Origin: Caldimicrobium thiodismutans
Lineage (GTDB): Bacteria; Desulfobacterota; Thermodesulfobacteria; Thermodesulfobacteriales; Thermodesulfobacteriaceae
Length of the DNA stretch: 36,024 bases
Assembly: GCA_002877875.1 (NCBI GenBank)
Contig: PNIE01000005.1
Span: 1-36,024 of the forward strand
Direction: 5' to 3'
Made by a program: the position numbers and the translations under genes. The first letter of the stretch is position 1, and each line of letters opens with the position of its first letter. Below, in pieces: positions 4,759-12,755 of the stretch. Under the pieces are notes generated by a model. It worked only from the letters and a program-made list of their open reading frames with translations. It had not been told where the DNA came from and did not search any database.

Positions 4759-4767
4759 TTTTCTCCA

Positions 4768-4797
4768 GGGCCTTTTTAAAAAGGCCCTTCCTTTTTT
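4768..4797 (+). terminator. Rho-independent terminator after qmoC
   Basis: Perfect palindrome GGGCCTTTTTAAAAAGGCCC then TTCCTTTTTT. Confidence 0.8.
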
Positions 4798-4820: not shown

Positions 4821-7163
4821 ATGAGATTTAATTTATTTTTCTTTTTGGTTCTTTTTTTGATCTTTTCCTTTTTTATCACCGTCAATCTTTTTTTTGAAAG
4901 ATCCTTTCAAAGAGAGGCTATAGAACTTACTCATAAAGAGCTAGGCTTACTTACCCATAGTCTTTCAGATAGGCTTTCTTTTATACTAAATATTTTGCCA
5001 CAAAAATATATTTCTATAGAAAATTATTTAAAAAATAGAGCCTTTGATTTAGATGAAAACTTTTTTAAAACCATTTTCATTGAAGATTTCGAGAGACTTA
5101 CTCAATTGAGGGTGTCTTATTCTATTAAAAAAGTACCTAAAAAAATAAATCAAGATTTTTTTACAGAGGTTAATATTCCTGACAGAAAGATAATTTATCA
5201 TTTAATTTTTTCAAGAAAAGGATTTATTTATGATTATCAGGTTTTTTTAAGCTTAGATGATATTTTTGAAAAATTTTTAAGGTCATTTAGGTTTAGTGAA
5301 AAAGGCTATGCTTGGCTTATCTCAAAGGATGGAATTCTTATTTACCATTCTACTCAACCTGATATGATAGGAAATAATATTTTTACTAATAATCCAATAT
5401 GTTTTAAGTGTCATAAAGATTTTGAAATAGAAAAGTTAATCTTGAAAAGAGAAATATCAACAGGATATCAATATTATTTTTCGCCTGAAAAAAAAGATAA
5501 AGTAGTTTATTATTCAAAACTTTCTTTATTAGACAAAGAATGGATCTTTTGTATAAGTGTTCCCTATTCTGAATTAATGGCACCTATAAATAAAAGTATG
5601 AAATTACATTCTTTAATTGTTATTTCAATTTTTCTTTCTATGATAATTTTGGGTTTGTTATTTTATTATGTAAACACTAAGCGAATTACAGCTGAAGAAA
5701 AGCTGAAATTTTATTCTTTACTTGAAGGTATTATTGAAAGCACTCAGTCAAAAATAGTAGTTATTGATACAAATTACAATATAATTTTAGCTAATACGCA
5801 ATATGCTAAAATATTAAAAAGAACAAAAGAAGAAATTATTGGAATTAACTTTTTTGATATTTGTCCACAACAACTTTCAGAGTATAGAGATGACTTAAGA
5901 AATATGATAAGTAAAGCTTTTAAAGGAGAGTATGGTGAGCTACTTGGATACCCTTTAAGGGAGAATGGAGAAATAAGATATCATCATATTACAGTCACAC
6001 CTTTGAAGATATCAGGAGAAATAACAGGAGCTGTAATCACCTGTGATGATATTACAGAGGAGATTAATCTTAGAGAACAGATTAAAAATTATGCTAATCA
6101 GTTAGAGGAATTAGTTGCTAAAAGAACAGAAGAATTACGGACTGAAAAAGAGAAATTATCTATAATTATGCAATCGGTTAACTCAGGTATTTCTATCATA
6201 GATGAAGAAGGTAATATTACTTGGATGAATTCTAAAATGGAGGAGCTCTTACAGTTATACAAGAGGAAAACAAATACTAATAAAATTAATCTTTGTGAAC
6301 TTTTTTCTAAAATTGGAGATTGTCTAAATCCGGCACAATCAATGCAATTTGTTCAAGAAATAGTAACTAATGGTCAAAGAAAGATTTTTCAAGTTCAAAC
6401 TACTCCTTTTAAGGTGGCTGATGAAAAAACAAATTATATATGCTTAATTCAAGACATTACTGAGCTTAAACTCATGGAGGAAAGGATTATGCAATCAGAG
6501 AAATTGCAAGCCCTTGCTCGAATTTCAGCTGGGCTTGCCCATGAAATAGGAAATCCACTTACCTCGATCTCTTCTTATGTTCAGGTGTTAAAAGAAATGG
6601 ACCTTGGAGAATTTCCCAACCAAGCTTTAGACGTTATTTCAAGGCACATTTTCCGTATTTCTGAAATTATCAGAAATATTTCTAACTTTGCTAAACCTAC
6701 AAAAGGGGAAAATGTTCCCACTAATGTAAGCGAAGTTTTAGAGAGTAGTTTGAATTTAGTAAAATTTGATAAACGCATGAAGGATATAAATATTAAACTT
6801 GATCTTAAAGAAGTTCCTCAGGTTATGGTAGATCCTAATCAACTTTCTCAGGTTTTTATAAATACAATTTTAAATGCGGCAGATGCTATGCCCCAAGGAG
6901 GAGACCTCATAATTGAGACTAAAGCTACCAATGATTATGTGGAAATAAGTTTTACAGATACAGGTATAGGCATTCCTCCTGAACATCTACCTTACATTTT
7001 TGACCCTTTTTTTACCACTAAAGAAAAAGGAACGGGTTTTGGTCTTTCAGTTTCTTATAGTATTATAAAAAATTTTGGAGGTGATATAGAGGTTAGAAGT
7101 GAAGTGGGGAAAGGGTCTACCTTCATTGTTAAGTTACCAATAAAAAGAAGAAGTGACCTATAA
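4821..7163 (+). CDS. Membrane sensor histidine kinase: Cache-like periplasmic domain with CXXCH, PAS domains, HisKA/HATPase
   Basis: TM helices near residues 5-25 and 265-285; HSTQPDMIG Cache-like motif; CFKCH; H-box AHEIGNPLTSISSYV; N/G boxes NAADAMPQGG, DTGIGIPPE, GTGFGLSVSYSI. Confidence 0.9.
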   Translation: MRFNLFFFLVLFLIFSFFITVNLFFERSFQREAIELTHKELGLLTHSLSDRLSFILNILPQKYISIENYLKNRAFDLDENFFKTIFIEDFERLTQLRVSYSIKKVPKKINQDFFTEVNIPDRKIIYHLIFSRKGFIYDYQVFLSLDDIFEKFLRSFRFSEKGYAWLISKDGILIYHSTQPDMIGNNIFTNNPICFKCHKDFEIEKLILKREISTGYQYYFSPEKKDKVVYYSKLSLLDKEWIFCISVPYSELMAPINKSMKLHSLIVISIFLSMIILGLLFYYVNTKRITAEEKLKFYSLLEGIIESTQSKIVVIDTNYNIILANTQYAKILKRTKEEIIGINFFDICPQQLSEYRDDLRNMISKAFKGEYGELLGYPLRENGEIRYHHITVTPLKISGEITGAVITCDDITEEINLREQIKNYANQLEELVAKRTEELRTEKEKLSIIMQSVNSGISIIDEEGNITWMNSKMEELLQLYKRKTNTNKINLCELFSKIGDCLNPAQSMQFVQEIVTNGQRKIFQVQTTPFKVADEKTNYICLIQDITELKLMEERIMQSEKLQALARISAGLAHEIGNPLTSISSYVQVLKEMDLGEFPNQALDVISRHIFRISEIIRNISNFAKPTKGENVPTNVSEVLESSLNLVKFDKRMKDINIKLDLKEVPQVMVDPNQLSQVFINTILNAADAMPQGGDLIIETKATNDYVEISFTDTGIGIPPEHLPYIFDPFFTTKEKGTGFGLSVSYSIIKNFGGDIEVRSEVGKGSTFIVKLPIKRRSDL

Positions 7164-7165
7164 TT

Positions 7166-8521
7166 ATGGAAAAACCAAAAATTTTAGTGGTTGATGACGA
7201 AGTAGATATCTTAAATATTTTGAAATTTCTTTTAGAAAGAGAAGGTTATGAGGTAGATACCACTTTAAATGGAGAGGAGGCTATTAAGAAAATCGAAAAA
7301 AACTATTACGATATAGTATTAACAGATCTCAGGATGCCAGGTATAAGTGGAATAGTGCTTCTTGAAAAAACAAAGGAACTTAGCCCCTCAACAGAGGTGG
7401 TTATTATGACCGCCTATGCAAGTATTGAGTCAGCTGTTGAAGCTATAAAGAAGGGAGCTGCTGATTACATTGTAAAGCCTTTTATAAATGAAGATCTAAA
7501 AATGAGGCTTCGTCGTATTCTTGAACATAAAAAACTTCAAAGAGAAGTTGAGATTTTAAAATATCAACTAAGTCAAAAAATTACAGGAGATCTTTTTTTT
7601 GGAACCTCTCCTCAAATGCAAGAAATCTTAAAGCTTCTTGAAAGGATAACTCCTACTAAAAGCACAGTTTTAATATTAGGTGAATCAGGAACAGGAAAAG
7701 GAGTACTTGCCGAGTTTATTCATTACAATAGTCCTAGAAAGGACAAACCCTTTATAAGTATAAATTGCTCAGCTATTCCTGAAACTCTGCTTGAATCTGA
7801 ACTTTTTGGTTACAAAAAAGGTGCTTTTACAGGTGCAGTGAGTGATAAAAAGGGCCTTATTGAACTTGCTAATGAAGGAACCCTCTTTTTAGATGAAATT
7901 GGCGATATGCCTCTTAATCTTCAAGCTAAAATTTTAAAGTTTCTTGAATTCGGAGAATTTATTCCCTTAGGGGATACTGTTAAAAAACAGGTTGATGTAA
8001 GGGTTATTGCAGCAACTAATAAAGATCTTGAAGCTTTAATTAAAGAAGGAAAATTTCGAGAAGATCTTTACTATAGACTCAATGTCATTGAAATTAAAAT
8101 TCCTCCTCTTAGAGAGAGAAAAGAAGATATTCCAGCCTTAACTTACTTTTTTATTGATAAGTTAAGTAAAGAACATGGAAAAAAAATTAAGGGTATAACC
8201 AGTGAGGCTCTTACTTGTTTGATGCAATATAATTGGCCTGGAAATGTGCGGGAACTAAAAAATGTAATTGAAAGGGCTATAATTCTTGCAACAGAGGAAT
8301 ATATAACCTTGAATGAACTTCCCGAAAGAATAAAAGGTGAGAAAAATTTATCTCAAAGTTTTAAGCCTTTGAAAGAGGCTTTAGAGGAATTTGAAAAAAA
8401 TATAATTCTTAAAACTTTAAAACAGTGTGCTTATAATAAAGAGAAGGCAGCCCAACTTCTTGGTATTGATTTAGCAACTTTATATAGAAAACTCAAAAAA
8501 TATCAACTGACTGAAGATTAA
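7166..8521 (+). CDS. NtrC-family sigma-54-dependent response regulator
   Basis: Receiver (VVDDEVDI, VLTDLRMPG), AAA+ GESGTGKGVLAEFIH, GAFTGA loop, ESELFG, C-terminal Fis-type HTH; directly follows the kinase. Confidence 0.95.
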   Translation: MEKPKILVVDDEVDILNILKFLLEREGYEVDTTLNGEEAIKKIEKNYYDIVLTDLRMPGISGIVLLEKTKELSPSTEVVIMTAYASIESAVEAIKKGAADYIVKPFINEDLKMRLRRILEHKKLQREVEILKYQLSQKITGDLFFGTSPQMQEILKLLERITPTKSTVLILGESGTGKGVLAEFIHYNSPRKDKPFISINCSAIPETLLESELFGYKKGAFTGAVSDKKGLIELANEGTLFLDEIGDMPLNLQAKILKFLEFGEFIPLGDTVKKQVDVRVIAATNKDLEALIKEGKFREDLYYRLNVIEIKIPPLRERKEDIPALTYFFIDKLSKEHGKKIKGITSEALTCLMQYNWPGNVRELKNVIERAIILATEEYITLNELPERIKGEKNLSQSFKPLKEALEEFEKNIILKTLKQCAYNKEKAAQLLGIDLATLYRKLKKYQLTED

Positions 8522-8524
8522 GTT

Positions 8525-8806
8525 GTGTCCAGACCTTTTAGGCTTGGATTTTTTATAGGCTTTGTTTTGGGTATAGCGATTGCTTTTATCATAGATTTTG
8601 CCTTTAGAGATTATTTTGGAGGTACATGGTTTGATGCTGTTTCACATGATTTGTCAAGATTACTAGGTAGGCCTGTCCCACCGGACTCACCCATAGTTTT
8701 GCTTGGAGTTACCTTTGTGATAATGTTTATTGGGTTAATAGGAGAACTTTTAGGAGGTTTGGCTAGTAAGTTAATTTTTGATTTTCTTGATTCCCTTGAT
8801 TCCTGA
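8525..8806 (+). CDS. Small membrane protein of unknown function, 93 aa (GTG start)
   Basis: Two hydrophobic segments; 3 bp after the regulator stop codon. Confidence 0.65.
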   Translation: MSRPFRLGFFIGFVLGIAIAFIIDFAFRDYFGGTWFDAVSHDLSRLLGRPVPPDSPIVLLGVTFVIMFIGLIGELLGGLASKLIFDFLDSLDS

Positions 8807-8866
8807 TTTTTGCAATTCTGCAAAACAATAATCTTTACAGAAACTGTCTTTTTGCAATTCTGCAAA
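8807..8866. repeat. Two direct copies of a palindromic 18-mer, candidate enhancer/operator
   Basis: TTTTTGCAATTCTGCAAA at 8807-8824 and 8849-8866, 42-bp period; each contains TTTGCA-N4-TGCAAA. Confidence 0.75.
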
Positions 8867-8907
8867 TTAAAGCTCCTAAATAGCAAGAAAAAATCATCAT
8901 CTATTTT

Positions 8908-8923
8908 GGGCATGATTTTTGAA
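8908..8923 (+). promoter_or_regulatory. Candidate sigma-54 promoter (-24/-12)
   Basis: GGGCATGATTTTTGAA versus consensus TGGCACGN4TTGCA: GG-N10-G spacing kept, -12 element is GA instead of GC. Confidence 0.4.
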
Positions 8924-9201
8924 TATAATGATAACAAAAGGTGGTGCTAAAATTAAAGGCTTAGCCGAGAAAACCACAAACAAAGAAATCAAACATATAA
9001 GATTCTATAAATTATTTACTGGTTTTTATGGTTTTCCAAATGAGCATTTATCCGTCTCGGGAAATATTAGGTAGTGAGATTTTAAAGAGGGTTTTATTTT
9101 CAAATAAATATTTTAGTAGTTGCAGGAGTTTTTATAGGTAGTCTTTTTTATTTGATATTTAAAAATCTTAAAAATCAAAAATAAAAAAAGGAGGTGGGAT
9201 T

Positions 9202-9501
9202 ATGTTAGGAAAAGTTGATGTTAAGAGGGGTATTTACATTGGAACAGGGGCTGGTTTGATTCTCTTTGTACTACTTGGATTCTTTCCTAGTGCTATGGTG
9301 GGAGGATATGTGGGATTAAAACTTGCTGAGCTCATGGTGGGGCCTGGTAGCATGGGAGTTATTACGAGAGTTCTTACTGCTATAAGTATGATAGGAACTG
9401 TAATAGTCACAGCTGTAGCCTTCATTCTTGGTGGTGCTCTTGCTGGATATGTTATTTCTCAGAGGCTTGTAACAAGAGTAGAAGCAAAAGTTAAAGTTTA
9501 A
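9202..9501 (+). CDS. Small glycine-rich membrane protein, copy 1
   Basis: RBS AAGGAGGTGG; hydrophobic; aligns with the next ORF. Confidence 0.8.
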   Translation: MLGKVDVKRGIYIGTGAGLILFVLLGFFPSAMVGGYVGLKLAELMVGPGSMGVITRVLTAISMIGTVIVTAVAFILGGALAGYVISQRLVTRVEAKVKV

Positions 9502-9598: not shown

Positions 9599-9895
9599 AT
9601 GACTAGAAAGATTAAAAAGGGAGCTTTTATAGGTGCTTTTGTGGGATTGGTTATTTTTGTAATCCTTGGATTTTTACCTTCTGCTTACACCGGTGGTCTT
9701 ATTGGTTTTAAGCTTGCTGAGATGCTTTTTGGATCTCCTCTTGCCCCATCAACAGGTCCAAGAATCTTGGTTGGAATTTTAATGATTTTAAATGTGATTA
9801 TATCAGGTGCCTTTTTTATAGTTGCGGGAGCTATAGCAGGCTGGATGATAAGTACTCTTTTAGAAAAGAAAAAAATTAAAGAAAAAGTTTCTTAG
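9599..9895 (+). CDS. Small glycine-rich membrane protein, copy 2 (tandem paralogue)
   Basis: GLVIFVILGFLPSAYTGGLIGFKLAEMLFG matches GLILFVLLGFFPSAMVGGYVGLKLAELMVG of copy 1; RBS AAAGGAGGTG. Confidence 0.8.
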   Translation: MTRKIKKGAFIGAFVGLVIFVILGFLPSAYTGGLIGFKLAEMLFGSPLAPSTGPRILVGILMILNVIISGAFFIVAGAIAGWMISTLLEKKKIKEKVS

Positions 9896-9922: not shown

Positions 9923-10273
9923 ATGAAATTCATAGTAAGCAGAACAAGGGTTCCTTTGTGGAGTAAGGGGAAACCCTGTGATGAGGCAGTCGAGGAAGAG
10001 TTAACTCCTCTTGATTATAGGATGGTTCCAAGTATACAGGAAGCTAAAAAGAAAATCTGGTTTAAGGAATGGTGGGAGGGAGGTGTTAATCATCGAGAAG
10101 AAAATGGAATGATTGTGTGCGAAAAGAAACAGAAGGAGAAAAACTGGGTGATTGAAATTAATACTCATGAAGATCTTATAAAGTTTCAAGAAAAGTATGG
10201 TGAGATTATGAATCTTGATAGCCCACCCTATAAAGAAGTTAAAAAAGAAATTCGTATATTGAGAGCAAAATAA
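9923..10273 (+). CDS. Hypothetical soluble protein, 116 aa
   Basis: RBS AAGGAGGGGG; 13 bp before the NrfD gene. Confidence 0.65.
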   Translation: MKFIVSRTRVPLWSKGKPCDEAVEEELTPLDYRMVPSIQEAKKKIWFKEWWEGGVNHREENGMIVCEKKQKEKNWVIEINTHEDLIKFQEKYGEIMNLDSPPYKEVKKEIRILRAK

Positions 10274-10286
10274 AGGAGGGGGAGGT

Positions 10287-11522
10287 ATGAGTGAGAAAAA
10301 AAATCCAGTAGTTACAGAAGTTGAAGTAACAACCTTTTCTCAAATCTGGCTGACAAGTTTATTAGAGTTTTTATCAGGCACAAGGGCCTTTTATTTTTTA
10401 GTTGGTATAGCTGCTTTAGTAGTTCTTATAGCTGCTATGTTTGCTGTTAATGCAATGTATACAGGTTATCGCCATGCGTATGGCCTTACTAGAGAAATTC
10501 CCTGGGGAATTTTAATTTCAGGCTATGTATTTTTTGTGCTGACTTCATCAGGTTTATGTATAGTTTCATCTATAGGACATGTTTTTGGGGTTAAATCTTT
10601 CATGCCCATTGCTAAGAGATCTGTTTATTTATCTCTAGTAACTGTAGTGGCAGGATTTACGGTGATCTTTTTTGATTTAGAAAATCCTTTTAGACTTCTT
10701 ATATGGAATATTTTATCTCCTAATCTAACTTCTAATATATGGTGGATGGGAACTCTTTACGGAGCTTATTTATTTTTTATGGCCCTTGAATTTCTATTAT
10801 TACTTCTTGAAAAGCATAGATATGCTATGCTTTCTGGTCTTCTTGGTTTGATTTCTTTGATTGCTGAAGTTGCTGCTTCCAGTAATTTAGGGGCAGTTTT
10901 TGGAATGCTTCATGGAAGAGAATTTTGGTATGGACCTTATATACCAATTTACTTCATTGCCTCAGCTGCAGCCTCTGGGTGCACTGCCATCATCTTCTTC
11001 ACCTATCTTGGATATAAAATTACTGCAGAAAAAATGGACAGAGCTATGGAATTATCTTTACAGGCTGTAGGAAAAATCTGGGCTCTCTTTTTAGCAGTCC
11101 TTATGTTTTTTACTACTTGGAAAATAATAACAGGCTTTGTAGGCGGAGAAGGGAAAGTTCTTGCTTTAAAAGAATGGCTTACAGGTAAATATGCCCTTAA
11201 CTTTTGGCTCTTTGAAGTTGGTTTTGGACTTTTGATCCCCTTCTTTTTACTTCTAATTTCTGGTTTCAAAAATTTGAATCAAATGTTTGTGGCCTCAGTA
11301 TTTGCCTTTATCGGGATCTTCTTTATGAGAGTTGATCTTGTAGTAGTGGGACAGATTGTCTCTCACTATTTTGAATTTAAAGTTACAGATTTTCCAGTGA
11401 TTTTGAGTTATAAACCTAGTATTTATGAAATTATGATAATAGTTGGAGCCATAGCTTTCTGTATGATGGCCTTTTTAGTTGGGGAGAAAGTATTTAAGGG
11501 TCACAAGACAGAAATTCATTAA
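10287..11522 (+). CDS. NrfD/DsrP-like polytopic quinone-interacting subunit
   Basis: 411 aa with about ten hydrophobic segments; YRHAYGLTREIPWGILISGYVFFVLTSSGLCIVSS is NrfD-like; adjacent to FeS and cytochrome genes. Confidence 0.85.
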   Translation: MSEKKNPVVTEVEVTTFSQIWLTSLLEFLSGTRAFYFLVGIAALVVLIAAMFAVNAMYTGYRHAYGLTREIPWGILISGYVFFVLTSSGLCIVSSIGHVFGVKSFMPIAKRSVYLSLVTVVAGFTVIFFDLENPFRLLIWNILSPNLTSNIWWMGTLYGAYLFFMALEFLLLLLEKHRYAMLSGLLGLISLIAEVAASSNLGAVFGMLHGREFWYGPYIPIYFIASAAASGCTAIIFFTYLGYKITAEKMDRAMELSLQAVGKIWALFLAVLMFFTTWKIITGFVGGEGKVLALKEWLTGKYALNFWLFEVGFGLLIPFFLLLISGFKNLNQMFVASVFAFIGIFFMRVDLVVVGQIVSHYFEFKVTDFPVILSYKPSIYEIMIIVGAIAFCMMAFLVGEKVFKGHKTEIH

Positions 11523-11537: not shown

Positions 11538-12296
11538 ATGTTCAAGGGAATAAAAGATTGGCTTTTAAATTTAAAAAACGAAGGAGTTGAAAAAGTTCCT
11601 GATGAGACAAAAAGAGAATTTTTAAAGATTGGCCTTATCATTACAGGAGTTTTTGCCGGAGGTAGCCTTTTTTCTGTAATATCAAGGGTTGCAGAAGGGC
11701 TAGCAAGCTCAGAGGAACTTCATAAGAGCTATCCTTATAAGCCGCATTACTCTATGGTTTTTAAAATTGATAGGTGTATAGACTGTGAACTCTGTATGGA
11801 GGCTTGCAGAAAAACCAATCATGTACCTGATTATGGTTGGAGGACTATGATTTTAAGGAGATATGATGAGAGTGCTCTTGATCAAAAAACCATGTTTATG
11901 CCCATTCTTTGCAATCACTGTAATAATCCTCCCTGCGTCAGGGCCTGTCCTACAAAAGCTACTTATAAAGATAAAAAAACAGGGATTGTAAGAATGGCCT
12001 ATGATAAGTGTATAGGATGTAAAACTTGTATGGTGGCCTGCCCTTATAATGTAAGATATTTTAATGAAGAAAAACATGCAGTGGATAAATGCGATTTTTG
12101 TTGGGAATCAAGACTTTCAAAGGGAATAACCATCACTGCTTGTGCAGAGGCCTGTCCAGCAGGTGTGCGAATTTTCGGTGATCTTTCTGATCCTGGTAGT
12201 GAGGTATATAAATTAGTCCATCAGCTTGCCAAACCTGTTTGGGTTTTAAAGCCAGAAACGGGTGCTAAACCCAATGTTTTTTATACTATTAGTTAG
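11538..12296 (+). CDS. NrfC/DsrO/HybA-like 4x[4Fe-4S] ferredoxin subunit
   Basis: CIDCELCMEAC, CNHCNNPPCVRAC, CIGCKTCMVAC, CDFCWESRLSKGITITACAEAC; Tat-like KREFLKIG N-terminus. Confidence 0.9.
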   Translation: MFKGIKDWLLNLKNEGVEKVPDETKREFLKIGLIITGVFAGGSLFSVISRVAEGLASSEELHKSYPYKPHYSMVFKIDRCIDCELCMEACRKTNHVPDYGWRTMILRRYDESALDQKTMFMPILCNHCNNPPCVRACPTKATYKDKKTGIVRMAYDKCIGCKTCMVACPYNVRYFNEEKHAVDKCDFCWESRLSKGITITACAEACPAGVRIFGDLSDPGSEVYKLVHQLAKPVWVLKPETGAKPNVFYTIS

Positions 12297-12308: not shown

Positions 12309-12755
12309 ATGCGCAAAGTAAAAATCTTAATTGGGACCTTAATTCTTTTACTTAGCTTTACTGGAATAGCCTTTGTATCTGAAAAAAATAAGGGAGAAAG
12401 TGTAAAGCTTGAAGAGCCACAGGAGGTTATTTATTATGAATCAGAACAATTTGGAGGGCCTGAAATTGTTTATGTTAAACCAGTGAGAGGGGTTCTATTT
12501 AGTCATAAAAAACACGTAGGGGAGCTGGGTTTTCCCTGTGAATCCTGTCATAATTCCCTATTTGAGATGCAAGCTTTGAAATCTCAGGAAAATCCTGATT
12601 TTAAAATGGAGGCCCTTTATCAGGGGAAGTATTGTGGAGCTTGTCATAATGGCCAAGCGGCTTTTGCTTCAAATACCAAATGTGCCACTTGCCACATAGG
12701 GGTCAAAGGCTTAAAAGAGTACATGAGAAAACTTGCAAGTAAAGAAAAGAAGTAA
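12309..12755 (+). CDS. Exported triheme c-type cytochrome (c7/c3-like)
   Basis: Signal peptide MRKVKILIGTLILLLSFTGIAFV; CESCH, CGACH, CATCH with FSHKKH. Confidence 0.88.
   Translation: MRKVKILIGTLILLLSFTGIAFVSEKNKGESVKLEEPQEVIYYESEQFGGPEIVYVKPVRGVLFSHKKHVGELGFPCESCHNSLFEMQALKSQENPDFKMEALYQGKYCGACHNGQAAFASNTKCATCHIGVKGLKEYMRKLASKEKK

Follow-up and report, generated by a model that had tools for sequence, protein, structure and literature searches.

Paired palindromic boxes and a predicted sigma-54 promoter: a probable enhancer circuit for an NrfD-type redox operon in Caldimicrobium thiodismutans

The stretch of DNA analyzed here (the window) comprises 36,024 nucleotides of Caldimicrobium thiodismutans, and the genes listed below with their coordinates are read from its forward strand. 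A terminator-like hairpin (4767–4788, forward strand) separates an upstream qmoABC group, whose QmoC was matched by NF038018 at 348.6 bits (cut-off 300), from the genes for a kinase and a regulator. The sensor histidine kinase (4821–7163) has, based on Pfam, two transmembrane (TM) segments, a periplasmic dCache region, PAS domains and HisKA/HATPase domains, with the motif CFKCH at residues 194–198. It is followed by an NtrC/AtoC-type response regulator (7166–8521), the presumed binder of the palindromic boxes described below, for which Pfam and NCBIfam identified a receiver, an AAA+ domain with GAFTGA and a Fis-type HTH. Its matches to PF00158 (239.7 bits), PF00072 and PF02954, together with GAFTGA, are those of an NtrC-family activator (bEBP), and both GAFTGA and the receiver Asp are intact. 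The best NCBIfam match of the regulator was AtoC (NF008469), but since the score of 477 bits lies below the equivalog cut-off of 714, we conclude that it is not AtoC. Directly after the regulator gene, in both of the phyla considered below, there is a gene for a 93-aa protein with two TM segments and no Pfam or NCBIfam match (8525–8806), orthologs of which were found in two congeneric genomes (G001 and G005) and at eight Nitrospirota loci, making this protein a candidate accessory of the kinase/regulator pair.

The predicted target operon begins with a leader ORF (8950–9184) in which a three-frame comparison revealed two or more frameshifts in the window; the small membrane protein to which it corresponds is intact in G001 and, it appears, in G005 too, where the contig end cuts it. 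The broken leader ORF reflects either true decay or an assembly error. There follow a small membrane protein of 99 aa (9202–9501), homologs of which follow the boxes in Nitrospirota, its paralog of 98 aa (9599–9895), a conserved protein of 116 aa (9923–10273), an NrfD-type integral membrane subunit (10287–11522; PF03916, 95.6 bits versus a cut-off of 25.8), a DsrO/NrfC/QrcC-like 4Fe-4S subunit (11538–12296) with NCBIfam scores below the equivalog cut-offs, and a c7-type triheme cytochrome (12309–12755; TIGR04257, 81 bits versus a cut-off of 40). The complex was assigned to neither QrcABCD nor DsrMKJOP, as the NrfD subunit scored 36.6 versus 350 for DsrP, the FeS subunit 173.5 versus 200 for DsrO and 106.8 versus 400 for QrcC, and the cytochrome 22.1 versus 180 for QrcA. 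Membrane complexes of the NrfD type have a central part in how sulfur-cycling bacteria conserve energy, and the switches that control them are rarely known.

Between the 93-aa protein gene and the leader ORF, the 18-mer TTTTTGCAATTCTGCAAA occurs twice, as the original prediction had claimed, at 8807–8824 (the distal box, UAS1) and 8849–8866 (the proximal box, UAS2), with a start-to-start distance of 42 bp. Both copies, to which no strand was assigned, contain the dyad TTTGCA-N4-TGCAAA (8809–8824 and 8851–8866). The -24/-12-like element proposed downstream of them was likewise confirmed: GGGCATGATTTTTGAA occupies 8908–8923 on the forward strand, with GG at 8909–8910 and G-A at 8921–8922 (GG-N10-GA), and the predicted transcription start near 8934 agrees with the -12 position. 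The positions of -127 and -85 that had been given for the repeats are those of the starts of the 18-mers, and the centers of the palindromes are instead at approximately -117 and -75 relative to the predicted start. Genome-wide statements in this study are based on pattern searches, and in the host assembly (1.30 Mb, 84% complete) exact TTTGCA-N4-TGCAAA was matched twice, both times at this locus, with 0 matches for the reversed pattern. A search of the window alone that allowed two mismatches gave no excess (3 found versus 3.4 expected), and the significance of the boxes therefore comes from the exact matches, their pairing and their conservation. Exact boxes within coding genes have no suitably spaced promoter and appear to be fortuitous.

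The whole arrangement was identified in G001, a complete genome, with protein identities of 64–91%, and in G005, where it is spread over two contigs. Both genomes have the two boxes at the identical 42-bp spacing and a promoter, GGCAT-N5-TTGA, at the same distance, and since the DNA between the boxes and the promoter has diverged among the three congeners while the elements have been kept, their recurrence is beyond what would be expected by chance. The palindrome copies are identical in the window and non-identical in G001 and G005, yet their symmetry and spacing are retained. Paired boxes were present in three of the 30 genomes of the family, the same three that carry the 93-aa cassette marker (smORF93; Fisher, 0.00025), a count that includes close relatives, such that there are fewer independent events than genomes. 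In three other family members (G007, G023 and G028) the NrfD operon lies directly behind qmoABC, and there is no kinase, regulator or boxes. Separately, G005 was found to contain two slightly different enhancer-promoter-leader copies, L057 (on contig C29) and L216 (on C23), both of which run to a contig end and stop there at the same base, and its operon has probably been duplicated.

A scan with NrfD located counterparts in the Nitrospirota, in which the same operon of small membrane protein, 116-aa protein (o116), NrfD, FeS and c7 subunits was found, with boxes, paired or single, before its first gene in about a dozen cases. The spacing between boxes in that phylum is 20, 29 or 30 bp versus 42 bp here (approximately two, three and four helical turns). 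Of 21 orthologous or paralogous sites from both phyla, 19 have the proximal box 57–61 bp before the GG of the -24 element (dinucleotide shuffles, 1/6300). Orthologs of the kinase, regulator and 93-aa protein are usually located downstream on the opposite strand, and at most of the Nitrospirota loci the regulator gene again adjoins the box-bearing operon. Given that the boxes are still before the operon where the regulator genes have moved elsewhere or to the other strand, they stay with the target operon, which supports the earlier proposal that the small-membrane-protein/NrfD/cytochrome operon is what the circuit drives. The conserved geometry in two phyla also supports the earlier description of the paired sites as enhancer-like; as in a bacterial enhancer (UAS), paired dyads precede a predicted sigma-54 promoter at a fixed distance and are conserved together with the presumed activator. 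In addition, 15 of 16 sites in Nitrospirota (loci L111–L126 and L219–L222) have an IHF-like WATCAA-N4-TTR 18–19 bp upstream of the -24 GG. Most of these sites are not significant individually against shuffles, so that the fixed offset is the one feature that speaks for the element, which is absent from the genus of the window.

By the usual definition a sigma-54 promoter has GG and GC doublets approximately 10 bp apart (TGGCAC-N5-TTGC), and the promoter in the window departs from this consensus twice, having GA at -12 and G instead of T as its first base. That GA had originally been taken to make the promoter call weaker than the repeat call, a reservation that appears unnecessary because GA is kept in all three congeneric genomes (the counterparts in G001 and G005 are TGGCATATTTTTTGAT and TGGCATGGTTTTTGAT) and typical of the sigma-54-type sites of the genus. 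The homologous Nitrospirota promoters have GG-N10-GC (TGGCATGGAATATGCT, TGGCA..TGC) where the three congeners have GG-N10-GA. Supporting the sigma-54 designation was that Nitrospirota orthologs have the canonical TGGCATGNNNNNTGC at the homologous position and that RpoN is encoded in both sister genomes, G001 and G005; a search of the host assembly, which is 84% complete, did not find it. Among 17 predicted sites matching TGGCAYRNNWNTTG[AC]W in the three congeneric genomes, 13 have GA at -12, and those with GA are located upstream of flgB in three genomes, of a flagellar rod-type gene, and of a small c-type cytochrome gene in two genomes. The formate-THF ligase promoter has GA in one congener and GC in its sister, and the glnA promoter has GC. 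All of these downstream genes were named from sequence and not by family search. With a broader -24/-12 pattern, the base at the -12 C position, counted manually from the list of matches, was A30/T24/C20/G0 over the predicted sites of the Thermodesulfobacteriaceae versus A3/T7/C11/G8 for the rest of the order; A or T is thus frequent in the former, in which G was never found with the pattern searched. Because this pattern was enriched over its reversed control, GA at -12 looks to be tolerated in the Thermodesulfobacteriaceae, and searches restricted to GG-N10-GC would overlook many of the family's sigma-54 promoters.

The designation of the adjacent NtrC-type regulator as the predicted binder, which was part of the original prediction, is supported by the co-occurrence of its orthologs with the boxes and by a distinct, shared recognition helix. 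Regulator orthologs with 56–87% identity were found in the box-bearing genomes, compared with ≤50% for the best activator in related box-free genomes; in two Nitrospirota genomes with boxes, G065 and G066, there was no clear ortholog, and G065 has a fragment of 54% identity at a contig end (locus L123). The recognition helix is GIDLATLYRK in the window and G[IV]D[LI][AV]TLYRK throughout the orthologs, and it differs from the helices of the other activators read in these genomes, such as GISRKTLWQK and GITERMLRYK. It would be conceivable for the boxes to bind some other NtrC-type activator, as the host assembly encodes several further sigma-54 activators, and G001 more than a dozen. We consider this very unlikely, however, because the 7166–8521 regulator is the only one to come and go with the boxes, has a helix unlike those of the others and is again encoded beside the box-bearing operon at most of the Nitrospirota loci.

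A role for the palindromes as sites through which a CRP/FNR-family regulator acts on the operon had to be considered for the reason that FNR/CRP boxes are 16-bp TTNNN-N4-NNNAA dyads, of which TTTGCA-N4-TGCAAA has the same size and symmetry, and that CRP-family proteins occur in the sister genomes. CRP-family genes are, however, equally present in box-free relatives (G002, G004, G006, G007, G023 and G028), whereas the distribution of the response regulator matches that of the boxes, and the fixed 57–61 bp to the -24 element is typical of a sigma-54 enhancer, which leaves very little probability for this alternative. Even less can be attached to the notion that the palindromes are RNA hairpins for termination or processing after the regulator genes: although each could form a stem of 6–7 bp and the first begins just past the stop codon at 8806, the predicted folding is weak (-3.5 to -7 kcal/mol, z -0.5 to -1.5), no terminator-like site was listed at the boxes, and the Nitrospirota boxes are upstream of the operon with conserved promoter spacing even though the regulator genes are elsewhere. 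The identity of the two 18-mers in the window would also fit a chance repeat or a mobile duplication without function, but the copies in G001 and G005 differ while keeping symmetry and spacing, and the arrangement recurs in another phylum, such that we view this explanation as exceedingly improbable. All four of these alternatives were thus tested and rejected.

We consider it highly probable, based on these sequence comparisons, that the locus encodes a dedicated enhancer–sigma-54 circuit driving the small-membrane-protein/NrfD/FeS/cytochrome operon. Points that count against it are the failure to find RpoN in the incomplete host assembly, the two departures of the promoter from consensus, the broken leader ORF and the lack of a clear regulator ortholog in G065 and G066. 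In the mechanism that we infer, which extends to regulator binding, phosphorylation, looping, the start site and the signal, the partner kinase (4821–7163) would sense a periplasmic signal, possibly via covalently bound heme c, and the 7166–8521 regulator, once phosphorylated, would use the palindromes as its enhancers (upstream activating sequences). Regulator dimers on both boxes would assemble an AAA+ hexamer that, by DNA looping, would contact RNA polymerase–sigma-54 held at 8908–8923; the promoter would then open and transcription would proceed from near 8934 through the small-membrane-protein/NrfD/Fe-S/triheme-cytochrome operon.

This kind of switch is textbook. In the NtrC enhancer of glnAp2, paired dyads lie approximately 75–120 bp upstream of a -24/-12 promoter that is activated by looping, as we propose here, whereas the dyad sequence, signal and target differ. 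The AtoS-AtoC system of Escherichia coli similarly combines a two-component NtrC-type activator with a pair of palindromic sites preceding a sigma-54 promoter, and the AtoC site upstream of atoDAEB has TGCA-rich half-sites, GCTATGCAGAAATTTGCACA (PMC3118216). In contrast to the two inverted 20-mers of AtoC, the sites here are 16-bp dyads spaced 20–42 bp apart, and the target is an NrfD redox complex. A likeness of organization can be seen in DVU3142-ohcBAC of Desulfovibrio vulgaris, a circuit conserved by comparative genomics in which a sigma-54 activator with a small dedicated regulon adjoins a membrane electron-transfer operon (PMC4641369); unlike here, DVU3142 is a one-component regulator and its target, the Ohc complex, includes an octaheme cytochrome together with a haem-b protein. 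In the open-licence literature searched, we found no description of the motif, of a CbcBA/BccR-type precedent or of a Thermodesulfovibrio/Caldimicrobium circuit, and the circuit itself is thus without description in that literature. With a defined operator, a defined regulator and a kinase that may be a heme sensor, all kept in two phyla, both the signal and the target are directly testable.

The NrfD tree bears on the origin of the operon, as the sequences from the host genome (G000), G001, G005, G007, G023 and G028 fall within a mostly Nitrospirota clade (100/100), apart from those of the family members G009, G010, G012 and G018. The simplest reading, with the direction taken from this nesting only, is that the circuit and operon were probably acquired horizontally from Nitrospirota. 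A more elaborate scenario, possible but on balance doubtful, is that thermophilic Thermodesulfobacteriaceae received an entire module (a heme-c-bearing dCache kinase, AtoC-like activator, two-TM protein, paired enhancers and NrfD/FeS/c7 operon) from Nitrospirota, after which its promoter was re-tuned, from GC to GA at -12, from 30 to 42 bp in box spacing and with loss of the IHF-like site, its kinase being a heme-c Cache type outside PF11845 that switches a respiratory complex in response to periplasmic redox state or NO.

The dCache region of the kinase contains HPTQ..M.G.N-Y..C..CH, and the CXXCH was kept in 13 kinase orthologs from both phyla (including L035, L057, L112–L115, L117, L119, L126 and L189–L191), and is a likely heme-c motif. 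The sCache_heme sensors (PF11845, the Tll0287/GSU0582 family) also carry CXXCH in their periplasmic sensor domain, which is of Cache type (PMC12889525). The kinase, in contrast, had no match to PF11845 even at E values up to 10 and matched dCache_1/dCache_2 weakly, such that it may possibly be a new type of heme-c sensor outside the described heme-Cache family; that it binds heme c and senses redox state or NO is our hypothesis. The CXXCH pattern was not found in the kinase copy of one genome, G062, where a box pair and a -24/-12 promoter are located upstream of the kinase gene itself (L218, 5254–5298), an arrangement that suggests autoregulation of the kinase gene in that genome.
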